Assembly: GCF_000010805.1 (NCBI RefSeq) | Contig: NC_012522.1 | Coordinates: forward strand, 4,402,001 to 4,466,000 | Source: Rhodococcus opacus B4 | Lineage (GTDB): Bacteria; Actinomycetota; Actinomycetes; Mycobacteriales; Mycobacteriaceae | DNA length: 64,000 nt | Direction of reading: 5' to 3' | In this document: piece by piece, positions 1 through 59,577 of the stretch | Layout: each line of letters opens with the position of its first letter | Numbering within the stretch: position 1 is the first letter of the stretch | Program-made: the position numbers and the translations under genes | Notes under the pieces: generated by a model | The model's input: the letters and a program-made list of their open reading frames with translations, nothing else | What the model was told of the DNA's origin: nothing | The model's database searches: none

Positions 1-908
<908 letters not shown>

Positions 909-19421: not shown

Positions 19422-19430
19422 TGTGGATAA
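19422..19430 (-). promoter_or_regulatory. DnaA-box-like TTATCCACA
   Basis: A perfect consensus 9-mer (reverse strand) lies 70 bp upstream of the HhH-GPD gene. The same 9-mer occurs upstream of both AbiEi-like genes. No origin-like cluster is seen, so a role is unproven. Confidence 0.4.
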
Positions 19431-30456: not shown

Positions 30457-32595
30457 GTGAGCGAGCAGAACATCATCAACTGGGAGCAGGACGCCGACGG
30501 CATCGTCGTGCTCACCATCGACGATCCCAACCAGGGCGCGAACACCATGAACGACGCCTACATCTCCTCGATGAAGGCGACCGTCGACCGCCTCGTCGAC
30601 GAGAAGGACTCCATCACCGGTGTCGTGATCACGTCCGGCAAGAAGACGTTCTTCGCCGGCGGCGATCTGAAGAACATGATCAAGGTCGGCCCGGAGAACG
30701 CCGACGAGATCTACAGCCACAGTGTCGCGATCAAGTCGGATCTGCGCCGCCTCGAGACGCTCGGCAAGCCCGTCGTCGCCGCCATCAACGGTGCCGCGCT
30801 CGGTGGCGGACTCGAGATCGCGCTGGCCACGCACCACCGCGTCGCCGCGGATGTGAAGGGCGTCAAGATCGGCCTGCCCGAGGTCACCCTCGGCCTGCTG
30901 CCCGGCGGCGGTGGCGTCGTCCGCACCGTCCGCATGCTCGGTCTGCAGAACGCCCTCATGCAGGTGCTGCTCCAGGGCCAGCAGCGGGGACCGGTGCAGG
31001 CCAAGGAGGTCGGACTCGTCGACGAGGTCGTCGCCTCCGTCGAGGAACTGGTGCCCGCCGCGAAGGCGTGGATCAAGGCCAACCCCGAGGGCGGCGTCCA
31101 GCCGTGGGACAAGAAGGGCTACCGGATCCCCGGCGGCACCCCGTCCACCCCGGCGTTCGCCGCGAACCTGCCCGCGTTCCCCGCGAACCTGCGCAAGCAG
31201 CTGAAGGGCGCGCCCATGCCGGCGCCGCGCGCCATCATGGCCGCTGCCGTCGAGGGGTCGCAGGTCGACATCGACAACGCGCTCCTCATCGAGGCCCGCT
31301 ACTTCACGTCGCTGGTCACCGGTCAGGTCGCGAAGAACATGATCCAGGCGTTCTTCTTCGACCTGCAGGCCATCAACTCCGGGGCGTCCCGTCCCGAGGG
31401 CATCGAGAAGACCCCGATCACCAAGGTCGGTGTGCTCGGCGCCGGCATGATGGGCGCCGGAATCGCCTACGTCTCCGCGAAAGCCGGCTTCGACGTCGTC
31501 CTCAAGGATGTCACCATCGAGGCCGCCAACAAGGGCAAGGCGTACTCCGAGGGCATCGAGGCCAAGGCGCTGTCGCGGGGCAAGACCACCGAGGAGAAGT
31601 CGAAGGCGCTCCTCGACCGCATCACGCCGTCCGCCGACCCCGCCGACTTCGCCGGTGTCGACTTCGTCATCGAGGCCGTCTTCGAGTCGCAGGACCTCAA
31701 GCACAAGGTGTTCCAGGAGATCGAAGACATCGTCGACCCGAAGGCGCTGCTCGGCTCGAACACGTCGACGCTGCCGATCACCGGCCTCGCGACGGGTGTG
31801 AAGCGCCAAGAGGACTTCATCGGAATCCATTTCTTCTCGCCCGTCGACAAGATGCCGCTCGTCGAGATCATCCGCGGCGAGAAGACATCCGACGAGGCCC
31901 TCGCCCGTGTCTTCGACTACGTGCAGGCCATCCGCAAGACGCCGATCGTCGTCAACGACTCGCGCGGCTTCTTCACCTCCCGCGTCATCGGCACGTTCAT
32001 CAACGAGGCCATCGCCATGCTGGCGGAGGGCATCGAGCCCGCCACCATCGAACAGGCAGGCATGCAGGCCGGCTACCCGGCGGCACCGCTGCAGCTGTCC
32101 GACGAGCTGAACCTCACGCTGATGCAGAAGATCCGCAAGGAAACCGCGGAAGCCGCGAAGGCCGAAGGCAAGGAACTGCCCGCCGACCCGGCAGGCGACG
32201 TCATCAACACGATGGTCGACAAGTTCGACCGCAAGGGCAAACTCGGCGGCGCCGGCTTCTACGACTACGCCGACGGCAAGCGCGCCGGCCTGTGGCCCGG
32301 GCTGCGGGAGAACTTCGGTTCCAAGGAACTCGAAGTGCCGTTCCAGGACCTCATCGAACGCATGCTGTTCATCGAGGCCATCGAAACGCAGAAGTGCTTC
32401 GACGAGGGCGTGCTCCTCACTACTGCCGACGCCAACATCGGCTCCATCATGGGTATCGGCTTCCCCGCCTGGACCGGCGGTGTGTCGCAGTACATCCAGG
32501 GCTACGACGGCGGCCGGGCCGGCTTCGTCAAGCGCGCCGAAGAACTCGCCGCCAAGTACGGCGAGCGCTTCACCCCGCCGGCGTCGCTGAAGTAG
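30457..32595 (+). CDS. fadB: Fatty-acid oxidation multifunctional enzyme (enoyl-CoA hydratase / 3-hydroxyacyl-CoA dehydrogenase)
   Basis: This 712-residue bifunctional protein hydrates enoyl-CoA and oxidises 3-hydroxyacyl-CoA. The N-terminal crotonase fold (~1-190) has FFAGGDLKNM, INGAALGGGLEIALATHHRV and LPEVTLGLLPGGGG. The NAD domain begins VGVLGAGMMGAGIAYVSAKAG (~326), with SNTSTLPIT, the catalytic IHFFSPVDKMPLVEII and DSRGFFTSRV. The C-terminal domain repeats the HAD fold. GTG 30457 has AGGAG 12 nt upstream. The TAG stop is the first element of a class B palindrome. Confidence 0.94.
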   Translation: MSEQNIINWEQDADGIVVLTIDDPNQGANTMNDAYISSMKATVDRLVDEKDSITGVVITSGKKTFFAGGDLKNMIKVGPENADEIYSHSVAIKSDLRRLETLGKPVVAAINGAALGGGLEIALATHHRVAADVKGVKIGLPEVTLGLLPGGGGVVRTVRMLGLQNALMQVLLQGQQRGPVQAKEVGLVDEVVASVEELVPAAKAWIKANPEGGVQPWDKKGYRIPGGTPSTPAFAANLPAFPANLRKQLKGAPMPAPRAIMAAAVEGSQVDIDNALLIEARYFTSLVTGQVAKNMIQAFFFDLQAINSGASRPEGIEKTPITKVGVLGAGMMGAGIAYVSAKAGFDVVLKDVTIEAANKGKAYSEGIEAKALSRGKTTEEKSKALLDRITPSADPADFAGVDFVIEAVFESQDLKHKVFQEIEDIVDPKALLGSNTSTLPITGLATGVKRQEDFIGIHFFSPVDKMPLVEIIRGEKTSDEALARVFDYVQAIRKTPIVVNDSRGFFTSRVIGTFINEAIAMLAEGIEPATIEQAGMQAGYPAAPLQLSDELNLTLMQKIRKETAEAAKAEGKELPADPAGDVINTMVDKFDRKGKLGGAGFYDYADGKRAGLWPGLRENFGSKELEVPFQDLIERMLFIEAIETQKCFDEGVLLTTADANIGSIMGIGFPAWTGGVSQYIQGYDGGRAGFVKRAEELAAKYGERFTPPASLK

Positions 32596-32653
32596 GCGGC
32601 TCCGCCGCCCGTGCGCCTTTTTGGTAGCTGCAACAACCGAAAAGGCGCACGGG
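32595..32653 (+). repeat. Class B palindromic element, copy B1
   Basis: It has two parts: a small hairpin GGCGGCTCCGCC whose first G is the last base of the fadB TAG stop (32595-32606), then a large 18-bp hairpin CCCGTGCGCCTTTTTGGT (32608-32625) with its complement (32636-32653, one wobble) and a 10-nt loop. It is forward-oriented and upstream of the first AbiEi-like gene. It may act as the fadB terminator. Confidence 0.8.
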
Positions 32654-32658
32654 GAGGG

Positions 32659-32709
32659 TTATCCACAACTTCGCGGTTATCCACAGGCAAAGTGGATAAC
32701 CGCGTTTTT
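32659..32709. promoter_or_regulatory. DnaA-box-containing hairpin with T5 tail upstream of AbiEi-like gene 1
   Basis: Two direct TTATCCACA 9-mers (32659-32667 and 32677-32685) and a reversed GTGGATAA (32692-32699) are present. The second and third form a perfect 13-bp stem (CGCGGTTATCCAC, 32672-32684, with 32692-32704) followed at once by TTTTT (32705-32709). It could be a terminator/attenuator, a DnaA-type binding site, or both. It ends 31 bp before the start codon. Confidence 0.6.
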
Positions 32710-32740
32710 GTCGGCTTCGGAGTCGGATGCGCATCGCACG

Positions 32741-33787
32741 ATGCGCCGTATGACCGACATCGATATCCCAGACTTCCAGCGCCTCGTCGACACCCAGTTC
32801 GGAATCGTCACGCAGGCCCAACTCGAGCCCTTCGGCTTCACTCGGGGCAGGGTTCGTCATCTCCTGGACACGGGGCAGTGGCGCCGTGTTCTCCAAGGCG
32901 TCTACGCCGTCACCAACGGCCCGTTGACCCGCGACATGATCCTGTCCGCCGCTCTGCTCTACGGTGGCGGGCATTCGATGCTCAGCCACGTCACCGCCGC
33001 CGAGGAATGGGGGATGGTCGTACCCCGAGACGGCGAGCCGATCCACATCACGGTGCCGTACGGGAAGTCATCGCGGTGCCAGAACGCGACGGGCATGCGT
33101 CCGTCACGTAAGCCGGGCAATCCGATTGCGGTGTCCACACCACTACATCCCGGCGTCGTCGTACATCGATCCAGGGCACACGAATACATTGCCGTCGACA
33201 CCGACCCGCCACGCACGTCGCGAGCCGACACCGCACTCGACCTCGCCATCGCCGAGCCCACGGCCCGGGACGCCTACACCCGGCTCATCGCCCTCGTGAC
33301 CAATGCCCGGATCCCACTGCGCGACATCCGGCGACGCATGGAGGAGCGACGCCCGCGTCGATACCGCAAGGCGCTCGTGGACGCGGTACGCATGCTGGCC
33401 GACGGAGTCCAGTCGGTGCTCGAATACCGCTACGCCACTGACGTCGAGGATGCGCACGGGCTTCCCCGGGCGCGGCGGCAGTCACCCGTGGTCGTGGACG
33501 GACGCACCCTCTTCGAGGACTGCGACTACTCCGATCACGGTGTACCGCTCATCGTGCGACTGGACGGTCGCCGCGCGCATGCCATGGCGGAGGTCGCATT
33601 CCGGGACCGTCGACGCGACAACGCCGCGGAACTGCAGGGGCGGCCGCGACTGGTCTACGGGTTCGACGAGGTGACGAAGAATCCCTGCGTGGTGGCCCGT
33701 GAAGTGGAGACCGTCCTGGTGCGGGAGGGGTGGGTCAGGCCGGGGGAGATGCCGTGCCCGGCCTGTGCGCCTTTCTGGTTGTCCTAG
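32741..33787 (+). CDS. AbiEi-type N-terminal domain fused to DUF559/Vsr-like nuclease domain (paralogue 1)
   Basis: This is a 348-residue protein (ATG 32741; ATG 32750 also possible). The N-terminal winged-helix part is IVTQAQLEPFGFTRGRVRHLLDTGQWRRVLQGVYAV; the middle is SAALLYGGGHSMLSHVTAAEEWG and ITVPY. The C-terminal part (LFEDCDYSDHGVPLIVRLDGRRAH...FRDRRRDNAAEL) resembles the PD-(D/E)xK fold of DUF559, but Arg stands where many DUF559 proteins have Glu before the LDG. It ends CPACAPFWLS, encoded in a palindrome. It is closely related to the 41539-42555 gene. There is no adjacent AbiEii toxin, so an antitoxin role is unsupported. Confidence 0.75.
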   Translation: MRRMTDIDIPDFQRLVDTQFGIVTQAQLEPFGFTRGRVRHLLDTGQWRRVLQGVYAVTNGPLTRDMILSAALLYGGGHSMLSHVTAAEEWGMVVPRDGEPIHITVPYGKSSRCQNATGMRPSRKPGNPIAVSTPLHPGVVVHRSRAHEYIAVDTDPPRTSRADTALDLAIAEPTARDAYTRLIALVTNARIPLRDIRRRMEERRPRRYRKALVDAVRMLADGVQSVLEYRYATDVEDAHGLPRARRQSPVVVDGRTLFEDCDYSDHGVPLIVRLDGRRAHAMAEVAFRDRRRDNAAELQGRPRLVYGFDEVTKNPCVVAREVETVLVREGWVRPGEMPCPACAPFWLS

Positions 33788-33818
33788 CAACCAAAAAGGC
33801 GCACGGGCGCGAAGCGCC
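33763..33818 (-). repeat. Class B palindromic element, copy B2
   Basis: Reverse-oriented: the small hairpin GGCGCGAAGCGCC (33806-33818) shares one base with the TAG stop of the cfa-like gene. The large hairpin pairs CTGTGCGCCTTTCTGGTTG (33763-33781) with 33788-33806. Its other arm carries the last codons and stop of AbiEi-like gene 1. Together with B1 it forms an inverted pair around that gene. Confidence 0.8.
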
Positions 33819-35119
33819 TACTGCCACCACGGCCGGAGCGGGACGTGCGCCTCGCCCTTGGGGCCGAGTTTGACGGCGAGGACCTGGTGCAGCTGAACGA
33901 CGTTGCGTTCGAAGCCGAGTCGCGACCCGGCCATGTAGAGGCCCCACACGCGGGCGGTGCCTTCCCCGACCTCTTCGACGCAGGCGTCCCAGTTGTCGAC
34001 GAGGTTCTGGCACCATCCGGCGAGGGTGAGTGCGTAGTGTTCGCGCAGGTTCTCCTCGTGCCGCACCTCGAGTCCGACGTTCTGGATCTCGGTGATGATG
34101 CGCCCGGAGCCGGTGAGTTCGCCGTCGGGGAAAACGTACCGGTCGATGAAGCCGCCCGCGCGGGCCTGACTCTGGTTGTCAGGCCGGGTGATGCAGTGGT
34201 TCAGCAGCCGGCCGCCTTCGCGGAGTTTGCTCTGCAGCAGACCGAAGTAGGAGGGGTAGTTGCCGACGCCGATGTGCTCGGTGAGGCCGATGGAGGAGAT
34301 GGCGTCGAAGCCGGTTTCGGGGACGTCACGGTAGTCGGAGAACCGGACCTCGGCGAGATCGGACAGCCCTTCTTCTGCGATGGCCTTCTGCGCCCATTCG
34401 GCCTGTTCGCGGGACAGGGTGACGCCGATGACCTTGACGCCGCGGCGTGCGGCGAACCGGACCATCGATCCCCAGCCGCAACCGATGTCGAGGAGGCGGT
34501 CGCCGGGCTGGAGGCCGAGCTTCTCGAAGACGAGACGGTATTTGTTTTCCTGGGCCTCTTCGAGGGTCTGCTCGGCGTTCTCGTAACACGCGCACGTGTA
34601 GGTCATGGACGGGCCGAGGACATACTCGTAGAAGGTGTTCGAGACGTCGTAGTGGTGGTGGATGACCTCGGCGTCGCGGGACTTGGAGTGCCGCAGTCCT
34701 TCCGCGACGCGCCGCCACCGCGGGAGGTGCTCCTGCGGCGGAGGGGCGATGGGGCGCAGCAGGTCCCAGCCGAGTGAGCGCGTGATCGCGGCGAGCGTCA
34801 GCGCCGACGGACGACGGAAGTGCAGTTCGTCGCCCATGACGCGGAGGATCTCGTACGGGTCGCCGGGGTGGACGCCGCGGGCCTCGAGGTCGCCGGACAC
34901 GTACGCCCGGGCCATGCCCAGGTCGCCGGGGGCGGTCGCCAGGTAGGTGGTGCCGCGGGTCGTCTTGAGGTGGAGGCCGTAGGGGGCGTCCTCCGGGCCT
35001 GCGGCGCTGCCGTCGTAGGCGGAGAACCGCAGGGGGAGCATGCCGTCGGACAGAGTTTCGAGAATCTCTGCGATGGTCAGCTTGTGGTCTTGCGAGCGTG
35101 AAGCTTTCAGAGTTGTCAT
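33818..35119 (-). CDS. Cyclopropane-fatty-acid synthase family SAM methyltransferase
   Basis: This is a 433-residue enzyme with a CFA-type N-terminal domain, then HHHYDVSNTFYEYVLGPSMTYTCACYE, the SAM site LLDIGCGWGSMVRFAARRGVKVIGVTLS, SIGLTEHIGVGNYPSYF and INHCI-like GRLLNHCITRPDN. The ATG overlaps the stop of the FAD oxidase (ATGA at 35116-35119). This coupled pair matches the TmsB/TmsA (BfaB/BfaA) pattern, in which the methyltransferase makes a 10-methylene fatty acyl phospholipid that the partner reduces to 10-methylstearate. A plain cyclopropane synthase is the alternative. TAG ends in class B element B2. Confidence 0.85.
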   Translation of the reverse strand: MTTLKASRSQDHKLTIAEILETLSDGMLPLRFSAYDGSAAGPEDAPYGLHLKTTRGTTYLATAPGDLGMARAYVSGDLEARGVHPGDPYEILRVMGDELHFRRPSALTLAAITRSLGWDLLRPIAPPPQEHLPRWRRVAEGLRHSKSRDAEVIHHHYDVSNTFYEYVLGPSMTYTCACYENAEQTLEEAQENKYRLVFEKLGLQPGDRLLDIGCGWGSMVRFAARRGVKVIGVTLSREQAEWAQKAIAEEGLSDLAEVRFSDYRDVPETGFDAISSIGLTEHIGVGNYPSYFGLLQSKLREGGRLLNHCITRPDNQSQARAGGFIDRYVFPDGELTGSGRIITEIQNVGLEVRHEENLREHYALTLAGWCQNLVDNWDACVEEVGEGTARVWGLYMAGSRLGFERNVVQLHQVLAVKLGPKGEAHVPLRPWWQ

Positions 35120-41415: not shown

Positions 41416-41420
41416 CCCCC

Positions 41421-41464
41421 AGGTGAGTGGCGAAGCGTGCCCGCGGGCGCCTTATCACTCACCT
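41421..41464. repeat. Class A palindromic element, copy A2
   Basis: The ends AGGTGAGTG...CACTCACCT are intact; the inner stem (GCGTGCCC/GGGCGCC) is degenerate. It lies 74 bp upstream of the second AbiEi-like gene start. Confidence 0.6.
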
Positions 41465-41466
41465 GG

Positions 41467-41487
41467 TTATGCACAGCCTGTGGATAA
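41467..41487. promoter_or_regulatory. DnaA-box-like inverted pair upstream of AbiEi-like gene 2
   Basis: TTATGCACA (41467-41475) faces TGTGGATAA (41479-41487), making a near-palindrome with a 3-bp centre. The same 9-mers occur upstream of the paralogue at 32659-32699. It lies between class A element A2 and the start codon. Confidence 0.55.
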
Positions 41488-41538: not shown

Positions 41539-42555
41539 ATGGAACACGACTCATGGCAGGCGCTTCTCGACGCCCAGGACGGCGTCGTCACCACGGCACA
41601 GCTACGGGCGCACGGCGTCAGTGCCACCGCCCTCCGGCACCGGGTGGTCACCGGCCAATGGCTGAGGGTGTTTCCCCGGGTCATCGCGGTGACCAACGGC
41701 CCGCTCACCCGCCCGATGGCCCTCTCCGCCGCGCTGCTCTACGGCGGCGACCGCGCGATCCTCAGTCACCGGACCGCGGCCGAGGAATGGGGGATGCTCC
41801 GCATCGACGACCCGTCCGCACCGGTCCACATCACCGTGCCCTACAAGTGCTCGGCGGTGAACCAGGGGTCGACGGTACGCGCACCGGGCGGCCCCCGCCC
41901 GACCTCCGCCGGCAACGCTCTCGTGCACGGCGGTGTCGTGGTCCATCGGTCGCGGGCGTTCGGGCACATCTCCGTCCCGTTCCGCCAACCCCGAACATCC
42001 AAGGCCGACACGGTGATCGACGTCGCGGCGTCGGAAGCAACCCCCAAGGACGCTGCCGCGCGATTGATCGAGGCGGCCACCAACGGCAAGGTCCACGTCG
42101 ACGCCCTCCGCCGGAAACTCGAGCTCCGGCGCCCGTACCGGCACGCGACGGACATCGCCGGCGCCGTGACGCTGCTCGGCGACGGCGTCCAATCCGTCCT
42201 CGAGCACCGGTACGCCCTCGACGTCGAGAGGTCGCACGGACTGCCGGCCGGAAAGCGTCAGATGCCGCACGTCGTGGACGGCCGAATTCTGTACGAGGAC
42301 GTCGACTACAGCCCGACCGGCGTCCCGCTGATCGTCCGGCTCGACGGGCAGCAGTACCACAGCGGACAGCAGTCCCGCTTCCGTGACCGCCGCCGCGACA
42401 ATGCCGCGGAACTCGCCGACCGTCCGCGGTTGGTCTACGGGTGGGACGAGACCACCCGCGACCCCTGCGGGGTGTTCGAGGAGGTACGCCGGGTGCTGGT
42501 CCGCGAGGGCTGGACCGACACGTCGCACCGCTGTCCCGCCTGCCCACGTGAGTGA
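41539..42555 (+). CDS. AbiEi-type N-terminal domain fused to DUF559/Vsr-like nuclease domain (paralogue 2)
   Basis: This is a 338-residue paralogue of the 32741-33787 protein; long identical blocks include VTNGPLTR, SAALLYGG, TAAEEWGM, ITVPY, DGVQSVLE, PLIVRLDG and FRDRRRDNAAEL. ATG 41539 starts MEHDSWQALLDAQDGVVTTAQL (winged helix). The nuclease-like part is YEDVDYSPTGVPLIVRLDGQQYHSG. The C-terminus SHRCPACPRE shares CPAC with the other copy. No toxin gene is adjacent. Its stop lies in class A element A3. Function is unknown; regulation, nuclease or repeat-maintenance roles are all guesses. Confidence 0.75.
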   Translation: MEHDSWQALLDAQDGVVTTAQLRAHGVSATALRHRVVTGQWLRVFPRVIAVTNGPLTRPMALSAALLYGGDRAILSHRTAAEEWGMLRIDDPSAPVHITVPYKCSAVNQGSTVRAPGGPRPTSAGNALVHGGVVVHRSRAFGHISVPFRQPRTSKADTVIDVAASEATPKDAAARLIEAATNGKVHVDALRRKLELRRPYRHATDIAGAVTLLGDGVQSVLEHRYALDVERSHGLPAGKRQMPHVVDGRILYEDVDYSPTGVPLIVRLDGQQYHSGQQSRFRDRRRDNAAELADRPRLVYGWDETTRDPCGVFEEVRRVLVREGWTDTSHRCPACPRE

Positions 42556-42637
42556 AAAAGCGTGTCCGGGGGCTCTTTCCCACTCACCTGCGCAGGTGAG
42601 TGGGAAAGAGTGCGGGACCACACTTTGCCGCTCACGT
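42545..42637. repeat. Head-to-head pair of class A palindromic elements (A3 and A4)
   Basis: A3 spans 42545-42589 and A4 42594-42637, in opposite orientation. The junction CTCACCTGCGCAGGTGAG is a perfect palindrome, longer than either element's own end. A3 contains the stop of AbiEi-like gene 2; A4 ends 3 bp before the gatD stop. The arrangement can terminate both convergent genes. Confidence 0.75.
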
Positions 42638-58428: not shown

Positions 58429-58473
58429 CACGTGAGTGGCAAAGTGTGCTCGCGCACGCTTTGCCACTCACCT
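58429..58473. repeat. Class A palindromic element, copy A6
   Basis: The perfect 13-bp arms GTGAGTGGCAAAG (58432-58444) and CTTTGCCACTCAC (58459-58471) enclose GTGTGC/GCGCAC, in a CACGTG...CACCTG frame. It lies between the convergent small protein and pirin genes and ends 5 bp before the pirin stop. Confidence 0.8.
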
Positions 58474-59521: not shown

Positions 59522-59577
59522 CTGTGCGCCTTTCTGGTTGCTGGAGCTACCAGAAAGGCGCACGGGCGCGGAGCGCC
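59522..59577 (-). repeat. Class B palindromic element, copy B3
   Basis: Small hairpin GGCGCGGAGCGCC (59565-59577) is 2 bp from the TAG stop of the DUF732 gene; the large hairpin pairs CTGTGCGCCTTTCTGGT (59522-59538) with 59549-59565. Same order and orientation relative to a stop codon as B1 and B2. No AbiEi-like gene is nearby. Confidence 0.8.

Follow-up and report, generated by a model that had tools for sequence, protein, structure and literature searches.

A gene for a 345-residue protein in the 64,000-nt stretch of Rhodococcus opacus B4 DNA analyzed here (the window; its genome is G000 below) lies between two inverted copies of a palindrome that recurs throughout the genome. Judging from sequence comparison, we think it probable that the gene and the palindromes form a partner system like the pairs of repetitive extragenic palindromes (REPs) and RAYT proteins, with an unrelated protein that is not of the HUH type. 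The gene-palindrome partnership itself is well supported by the comparisons described here, which also suggest that the partner protein maintains or spreads its own palindromes. The gene and its surroundings, which we call locus 1, are made up as follows.

32593..32653, plus strand: B1 element, with the fadB stop TAG, a small hairpin (GGCGGC-TCC-GCCGCC) and the class-B palindrome core (32611-32650); class C stands at the same site in type-II genomes (types are described below)
32659..32704, plus strand: leader, with two TTATCCACA boxes (32659-32667 and 32677-32685), which we take to be DnaA-box-like, and a hairpin with a 13-bp stem (32672-32704)
32750..33787, plus strand: AbiEi_4/DUF559-like partner gene, 345 residues, ATG at 32750; N-terminal domain at residues 8-135 and C-terminal DUF559-like domain at residues 196-335 (limits used in the domain comparison)
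33765..33820, minus strand: B2 element, with the class-B core (33765-33804), a small hairpin and the TAG of the minus-strand cfa gene (33818-33820); the loop holds the partner-gene stop

The partner gene, its protein and its flanking palindromes

The initial annotation described B1 and B2 as inverted flanks of the gene, and they show 83% mutual complementarity over 53 nt; the partner-gene stop (TAG) does lie inside the loop of B2, and the TTATCCACA boxes and the hairpin do occupy the 5′ gap. The stretches holding B1 and B2 gave folding z scores of -5.75 to -6.10, with 0 of 200 shuffles as good. Because the exact class-B core pattern was found at 60 places in the 8.83-Mb genome and the reversed control pattern at 0, we do not regard the two palindromes as chance occurrences. 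The upstream neighbor is of the fadB type (3HCDH and ECH domains), and its TAG (32593-32595) forms the outer edge of B1; the downstream neighbor, on the opposite strand, is of the cyclopropane synthase type (CMAS; cfa), and its TAG forms the outer edge of B2. B1 and B2 therefore double as 3′-end elements of fadB and cfa. A full class-B element is nested, reading TAG, small GC hairpin, 40-bp palindrome, small GC hairpin, CTA, with a single small hairpin intact in many copies. These small hairpins (TAG-GGCGC-TTC-GCGCC and variants with paired changes) carry the stops of the neighboring genes (32593-32610 and 33805-33820 in the window; class-B loci L019-L073). By a simple open reading frame (ORF) criterion, two gene-like ORFs ended at 34 of 57 class-B elements, one at 21 and none at 2, and the stops at these elements were located 16-20 nt before the palindrome in 65 of 89 cases and read TAG in 76 of 89.

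The leader boxes are likewise in excess: the window contains four TTATCCACA-type 9-mers against 0.05 expected, and TTRTCCACA was present in 44 of 73 partner-gene leaders (median position -93), against an expectation of 0.0025 per leader calculated on the remaining sequence of those loci. Perhaps this motif, presumably a DnaA-box-like sequence, is a DnaA- or replication-linked operator. A further TTATCCACA occurs on the minus strand at 19422-19430, with no AbiEi-like gene found beside it. Rfam at E≤5 returned three matches over 31500-35000, all far below their gathering scores, and scans of Pfam, NCBIfam, PADLOC, PDB and Rfam supplied no ready-made name for the system.

The N-terminal half of the protein is AbiEi-like. 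PF13338 matched 13 of 13 family members at E≤1 and PADLOC AbiEi models matched 13 of 13, with the window protein scoring 24.3 bits against PF13338, just below the 25-bit cut-off. The C-terminal domain is DUF559-like: hhalign gave 98.7% over the whole length and 96.3% for the C-terminal domain against AbiEi-DUF559 proteins (three sequences on the comparison side), which themselves match DUF559 and REase_MTES_1575 in Pfam, and a direct Pfam match to DUF559 was obtained for 2 of the 13 members (best E 0.12). Up to E=1, the Pfam matches of the 13 members were limited to AbiEi_4, AbiEi_3_N, DUF559 and DUF2016, with no transposase and no HUH family among them. We did not find an AbiEii nucleotidyltransferase toxin gene adjacent to the partner gene; both neighbors carry metabolic domains (3HCDH/ECH and CMAS). 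A comparison with plasmids gave no match, and one with phages gave a single 29% match, on an unannotated contig.

We then compared related loci in other actinobacteria, among which the family of the partner gene is broad. The best 80 of 128 relatives represented 76 distinct loci, of which 71 were usable after omission of 5 at contig ends; they came from Rhodococcus, Rhodococcoides, Prescottella, Antrihabitans, Williamsia, Pseudonocardia, Saccharopolyspora, Amycolatopsis and other Pseudonocardiales. A 5′ palindrome was present in 62 of the 71, a 3′ palindrome in 60 and both in 54. In 52 of these 54 two-sided loci, spread over seven named genera, the two palindromes belonged to one class (inner-arm similarity of at least 0.8), and the class differed from gene to gene. 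Inner-arm similarity was 0.908 within loci vs. 0.422 between loci, with 0 of 10,000 permutations as high, in a test that includes orthologs and near-identical loci, so that loci are not independent. Most of the homologs elsewhere, for which the initial annotation had suggested a search, carry matching flanks; they were not palindrome-free, nor is locus 1 invariably fixed. Among palindromes elsewhere in the named loci, 16 of 30 were of the local gene's class, and their mean match to the classes of other loci was 0.048. Outside Rhodococcus, 13 of 14 genomes contained 24-313 copies of the general palindrome GTGAGYGG-N24-CCRCTCAC, against control counts of 0 or 1; Williamsia had none. In Amycolatopsis pittospori (G037, locus L304), another class (GTGAGTGGCGATTCGGGTT...) was commoner than the L304 class among the places listed, and we therefore predict a second partner gene in that genome. 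In a distant protein clade, L162, L168, L172 and L173 had two-sided palindromes of further classes and other members one or none; the gene at L168 (G001:C1:4791300-4795000) is a distant AbiEi-like gene between GAGCGAA...TTCGCTC palindromes.

The initial annotation had left it open whether the gene was mobile cargo in a 1.2-kb unit or the partner of a REP-like element, and proposed that presence and absence be compared among Rhodococcus strains. The fadB stretch was matched in all 28 genomes of our genus set and partner proteins in 24, several weakly. The gene was directly downstream of fadB in 16 of 28, and in 9 of 28 cfa was present without it; in the remaining 3 cfa was not within the fetched stretch (G025, G013 and G024, where fadB lies at a contig end and the gene is carried on another contig). 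Loci without the gene had a single fadB-cfa hairpin; that of L104 resembles class B, and those of L100-L103 and L106 have other sequences. On visual inspection, L090 and L091 look like gene losses in which some of the leader is retained. Among individual loci, L095 (G022) has the gene split over two frames, L097 (G020) has a 749-nt fadB-cfa gap that lacks both the AbiEi-like gene and any 40-bp palindrome of the type tested for, and in L089 (end of G024:C11) the class-C palindrome after fadB seems to be interrupted by a possible insertion element where the contig ends. The single hairpin of several species without the locus-1 gene (L100-L103) resembles the L168 palindrome.

A transposable unit with the palindromes as its terminal inverted repeats would account for a gene between inverted palindromes that is missing from 9 of 28 fadB-cfa intervals. 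The gene nevertheless occupies the same place in 16 of 28 genomes, its apparent absence from L090 and L091 looks like loss, and the palindromes are the 3′ ends of the neighboring genes, with some 60 copies that mostly lack a gene. No case was seen of the unit at different sites with a target duplication. We consider a transposable unit very improbable; mobility of the 1.2-kb unit is not supported, while the pairing of a REP-like element with a partner gene is well supported by the flank match and by the copy number and the exchange in place described below.

Alleles at locus 1 and palindrome class at gene ends

Compared with G000, six genomes (G010, G006, G005, G026, G016 and G009) were 88-100% identical in fadB and 33-70% identical from 32614 to about 33153, which covers B1, the leader and residues 1-135. 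Beyond that point identity was 73-98% over the rest of the gene, 53-56% at B2 and 82-100% in cfa up to 34053. G008, G027 and G004 resembled G000 in the N-terminal block (78-98%). We refer to the G000-like form as type I and to the other as type II; the R. erythropolis group is mixed, with I-like G011 and G012 and II-like G001, G002 and G022. A tree of the flanks required six changes of allele type, and in a tree of the N-terminal block types I and II split once (support 100/99); for these trees the program warned of long branches meeting, and the upstream flank of G016 was shorter in the flank tree. As read from the trees, two deep alleles interleave across species at locus 1.

Alleles shared across species in this way, with PADLOC AbiEi models matching the N-terminal half in 13 of 13 members, would be expected of a defense or toxin-antitoxin gene under balancing selection to which the palindromes are incidental. 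This is the least probable of the explanations we weighed, given that the neighbors are metabolic genes with no AbiEii toxin and that the matching flanks and the dispersed cognate copies would be left unexplained.

Allele type was accompanied by palindrome class. Type-I loci had class B on both sides and type-II loci class C or a relative, with G004 carrying B at the 5′ side and C at the 3′ side. Genome-wide B/C counts in type-I genomes were 57/9 (G000), 45/18 (G008), 40/2 (G027), 14/41 (G004), 20/10 (G011) and 18/13 (G012); those in type-II genomes were 15/33 (G010), 38/28 (G006), 8/47 (G005), 11/44 (G026), 5/29 (G016), 13/41 (G009), 7/34 (G024), 3/21 (G001), 15/18 (G002) and 9/22 (G022). The B share of B+C was higher in type I than in type II (6 vs. 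10 genomes, one-sided p=0.0015), in a comparison that leaves out G018 (0 B/28 C, with a 65% identical gene of no type) and 11 genomes without a locus-1 gene. Because the genomes are not independent, we also compared sisters in the flank tree, and in 5 of 5 pairs the larger B share was that of the type-I member (G000/G010, G008/G005, G004/G016, G011/G002 and G012/G022; sign test 1/32). The fork at G000 was not settled among G000, G010 and G006, and G006 points the same way as G010.

The comparison of orthologous sites covered 456 kb in G000 and 400 kb in each of the other two genomes, G010 and G027. Seven of nine G000 class-B sites were placed in G010, where six were class C and one was B, and all 11 G027 class-B sites were placed in G010, with nine C, one B and one without an element; these counts include the two flanks of the partner gene (elsewhere they are 4 of 5 for G000 and 7 of 8 for G027), and the two sets overlap. 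Between G000 and G027, both of type I, 7 of 7 placed class-B sites remained B. One G000 class-C site was B in G027, where the 21-60 bp flank also aligned poorly (43%). Classes F and H, which belong to two paralogs of the partner gene (genes 2 and 3, below) that G000 and G010 both have, kept their class at 7 of 7 and 8 of 8 placed sites between these genomes. G000 sites that were not placed in G010 numbered 2 of 9 for class B, 4 of 11 for class F and 3 of 11 for class H. B-to-C sites were 45% identical over the central ~40 bp; identity rose to 84% at 21-60 bp and reached 90-92% at 61-310 bp. Because the drop in identity is confined to the central ~40 bp and the flanks are kept, the class exchange is not an import of long tracts. 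Two class-C calls stood outside the swap counts: the one at G000 4385171 reads by eye as a terminator that follows a tRNA-like end, and the one at G010 143573 looks like a chance match. From these alignments, what moves at locus 1 is the allele block of B1, leader and N-terminal half, and what moves at other gene ends is the class of the 40-bp palindrome.

The same half of the protein stood out when domains were considered separately. Across 60 proteins, the partial correlation of palindrome distance with N-domain distance, controlled for the C-domain, was 0.42 (0 of 1,000 permutations as high); with C-domain distance, controlled for the N-domain, it was 0.06 (136 of 1,000 permutations). Of 62 proteins 60 were used, the two with internal stops in the frame chosen here being omitted while their palindromes were kept in the flank-pair test. 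On these distances, palindrome sequence follows the N-terminal domain and not the C-terminal one.

Copy number, partner loss and alternative readings

Palindrome copy number tracked the partner gene for the second paralog as well. Gene 2 (C5:5331914 in G000) has class F on both sides in G000, G004, G005, G006, G008, G010, G016 and G026. In G009 class F is present at the 5′ side alone, and in G001, G002 and G011 the gene has class E on both sides instead. Exact class-F copies, counted with a pattern that asks for the outer 10 bases of each arm only, numbered 76 in G000, 89 in G004, 71 in G005, 85 in G006, 79 in G008, 46 in G009, 89 in G010, 48 in G016 and 79 in G026. G027, in which a gene 2 fragment remains without class F beside it, had 12 copies, and of the remaining 18 genomes G020 had 1 and the other 17 (including G001, G002 and G011) had none.

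Gene 3 is the second partner gene of the window. It is listed here with the other elements that we recognized there.

41539..42555, plus strand: gene 3, with 56% identity; we take class H to be its cognate palindrome class
41420..41465, no strand: imperfect palindrome on the 5′ side of gene 3, of class-H type as read by eye
42573..42610, no strand: 3′ palindrome of gene 3
41479..41487, minus strand: TTATCCACA in the gene 3 leader, presumably DnaA-box-like
866..905, no strand: dispersed class-H palindrome
58432..58471, no strand: dispersed class-H palindrome
59524..59563, no strand: third class-B palindrome of the window, also adjoining a TAG; its G010 counterpart is class C

Two palindromes of another type lie at 1689-1735 and 2465-2504 (GTGAACGTACC... 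and GTGAGCGTGC...) and are found at the same sites in both other compared genomes (the first G027 copy was seen in part).

In G027 gene 3 is deleted, leaving an 80-bp remnant. Class-H sites with both arms/one arm recognizable numbered 14/1 in G000, 11/3 in G010 and 4/8 in G027 (4/8 vs. 25/4, Fisher p=0.0016). By this count, class H is eroded after gene 3 loss in this one genome.

A mechanism that would connect these patterns is as follows. The N-terminal AbiEi-like winged-helix half of each protein would recognize one class of ~40-bp GTG...CAC palindrome, which is present in two copies around the protein's own gene and in tens of copies at gene 3′ ends, the latter possibly serving as bidirectional terminators. 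The C-terminal DUF559-like (PD-(D/E)XK-like) half would nick or cut DNA at the palindromes, and repair or strand transfer would then copy the cognate palindrome into the cut site. Such copying would spread and homogenize the cognate class, and after an exchange of the partner allele it would replace the other class in place. DNA binding, termination, nuclease activity, copying and a replacement performed by the protein itself are all steps that we infer. More tentatively, and with slightly more doubt than confidence, we propose that the protein of a newly acquired allele drives a genome-wide conversion of gene-end palindromes to its own class, one by one and in place, at dozens of ends. If so, a protein that is not a transposase would be rewriting gene ends in a drive-like manner, and genomes such as G004 (type-I gene, B at the 5′ side, C at the 3′ side, 41 C vs. 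14 B) would have been caught shortly after the switch.

Several observations weigh against a partner system of this kind. Of the 71 usable loci, 17 lack one or both palindromes; the pairs at L237 (R. jostii, 0.40) and L268 (Williamsia, 0.70) match poorly, and in 7 of 54 loci the best match of the 5′ copy is not its own 3′ copy. G004, of type I, has mostly class C (14/41 B/C), and G006, of type II and with 9% contamination, has mostly class B (38/28 B/C). One class-B site stays B in all three of G000, G010 and G027. The E-x-DG motif of DUF559 reads R-L-D-G in all 18 alignment rows, with the other acidic residues (SxLE, ED) invariant, and cutting activity is uncertain because of this E-to-R difference. 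By the arm count, the 400-kb stretch of G027 shows no erosion of class F (10/0 vs. 11/1 and 12/0) despite the gene 2 fragment, although the 12 exact class-F copies of this whole genome are few and single G027 class-F sites show deletions. Finally, G003 holds 30 class-B copies by the refined pattern without a partner match at E≤0.001, and G015, G017, G021 and G023 hold 2-11 class-B copies with weak homologs only. Orphan palindromes therefore persist, against a strict dependence on the partner; those of G003 may be true orphans, the result of a recent loss, or palindromes of a partner missed by the search.

In another reading the protein moves nothing: it would be a site-specific DNA-binding terminator or roadblock factor, and selection would keep the palindromes as its operators, both beside its own gene and at the 3′ ends of genes. 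At least one gene-like ORF ends at 55 of the 57 class-B elements, with stops clustered 16-20 nt before the palindrome and mostly TAG; the co-variation of the palindromes is with the N-domain, class F is uneroded in the sampled part of G027, and AbiEi antitoxins bind inverted repeats and autoregulate, as described in the accessible part of one report (PMC7319586). Whole 40-bp palindromes are nevertheless exchanged with their flanks kept, which calls for a copying mechanism, and exact class-F copies (outer 10 bases per arm) are absent from 17 of 18 genomes without a class-F gene. We judge this explanation unlikely.

Less likely again is the spread of the palindromes by an unrelated factor, such as recombination or another transposase acting on hairpins, with the AbiEi-like gene hitch-hiking between terminators or regulating itself. 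The orphan class-B palindromes of G003 and other partner-less genomes, and again the uneroded class F in the sampled part of G027, are what such a factor would leave. It would not predict that classes match gene by gene, as they do in 52 of 54 two-sided loci across seven named genera, nor that copy number tracks the partner and class tracks the N-domain. We favor a partner protein that acts on its own palindromes.

Relation to known systems

The nearest parallel is with the REP/RAYT pairs known as REPtrons. As far as the accessible parts of two papers describe them (PMC3733652, PMC8266576), these consist of high-copy extragenic palindromes, mostly near gene 3′ ends, with a partner gene that often has copies of the same palindrome on either side; repeats and their partners co-evolve, and species with several repeat families have repeat-specific partners. 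The system described here likewise has dispersed high-copy palindromes (60 exact class-B and 76 class-F places in G000) and a partner gene between palindromes of the same class (52 of 54 two-sided loci; 54 of 71 two-sided). RAYT proteins, however, are HUH tyrosine (Y1) transposases of the IS200/IS605 kind, whereas the protein here combines an AbiEi winged helix with a DUF559-like domain and has no transposase match. REPs are described in those same parts as 20-40 bp long with a GTAG or CGTC tag, in contrast to a 40-bp GTG...CAC core, and in-place class exchange is not mentioned there for REPs. Because the HUH transposase that defines RAYTs was not found, we regard the system as an analog of REPtrons and not as a member.

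Each half of the protein also has known relatives. AbiEi antitoxins of type IV toxin-antitoxin systems are known to bind DNA at inverted repeats, according to the available portions of two reports (PMC7319586, PMC3985639). The N-terminal AbiEi_4 winged helix is shared with them; the C-terminal half here is instead DUF559-like, and neither neighbor is an AbiEii toxin gene. EDxHD homing endonucleases are linked to Vsr-like nucleases. We group DUF559, REase_MTES_1575 and Vsr-like nucleases together with these EDxHD enzymes (PMC6083498). The likeness to this grouping lies in the profile match given above (98.7% over the whole length, 96.3% for the C-domain; three sequences on that side). The differences are that R-x-DG stands here for E-x-DG, that there is no intron, intein or single target gene, and that the cognate sites are dispersed palindromes.

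The mycobacterial TRITs are repeated rho-independent terminators. Like the palindromes here, they are sequence-conserved hairpins directly after stop codons, in many copies; the element here differs in being symmetric, often with stop codons at both edges, and we know of no cognate protein gene flanked by TRITs.

A literature search whose coverage did not extend to subscription journals found no paper pairing AbiEi with DUF559. Among titles and the beginnings of abstracts, none of the DUF559 literature dealt with palindromes, and, with the same coverage of journals, none on Rhodococcus palindromes, terminators or RAYT reported the system. A term search of the accessible text of a REP survey (PMC12306157) returned neither Rhodococcus nor RAYT.

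One large group of REPs, those with a CGTC tag, apparently has no dedicated transposase, according to the accessible part of one of the papers above (PMC3733652), and for many bacterial palindrome families the agents are unknown. The very abundant actinobacterial palindromes described here seem to have such an agent in a protein of a second, unrelated kind. Since closely related species with different allele types carry different palindrome classes at orthologous sites, how REP-like palindromes spread, and why they are located at gene ends, would become directly testable.

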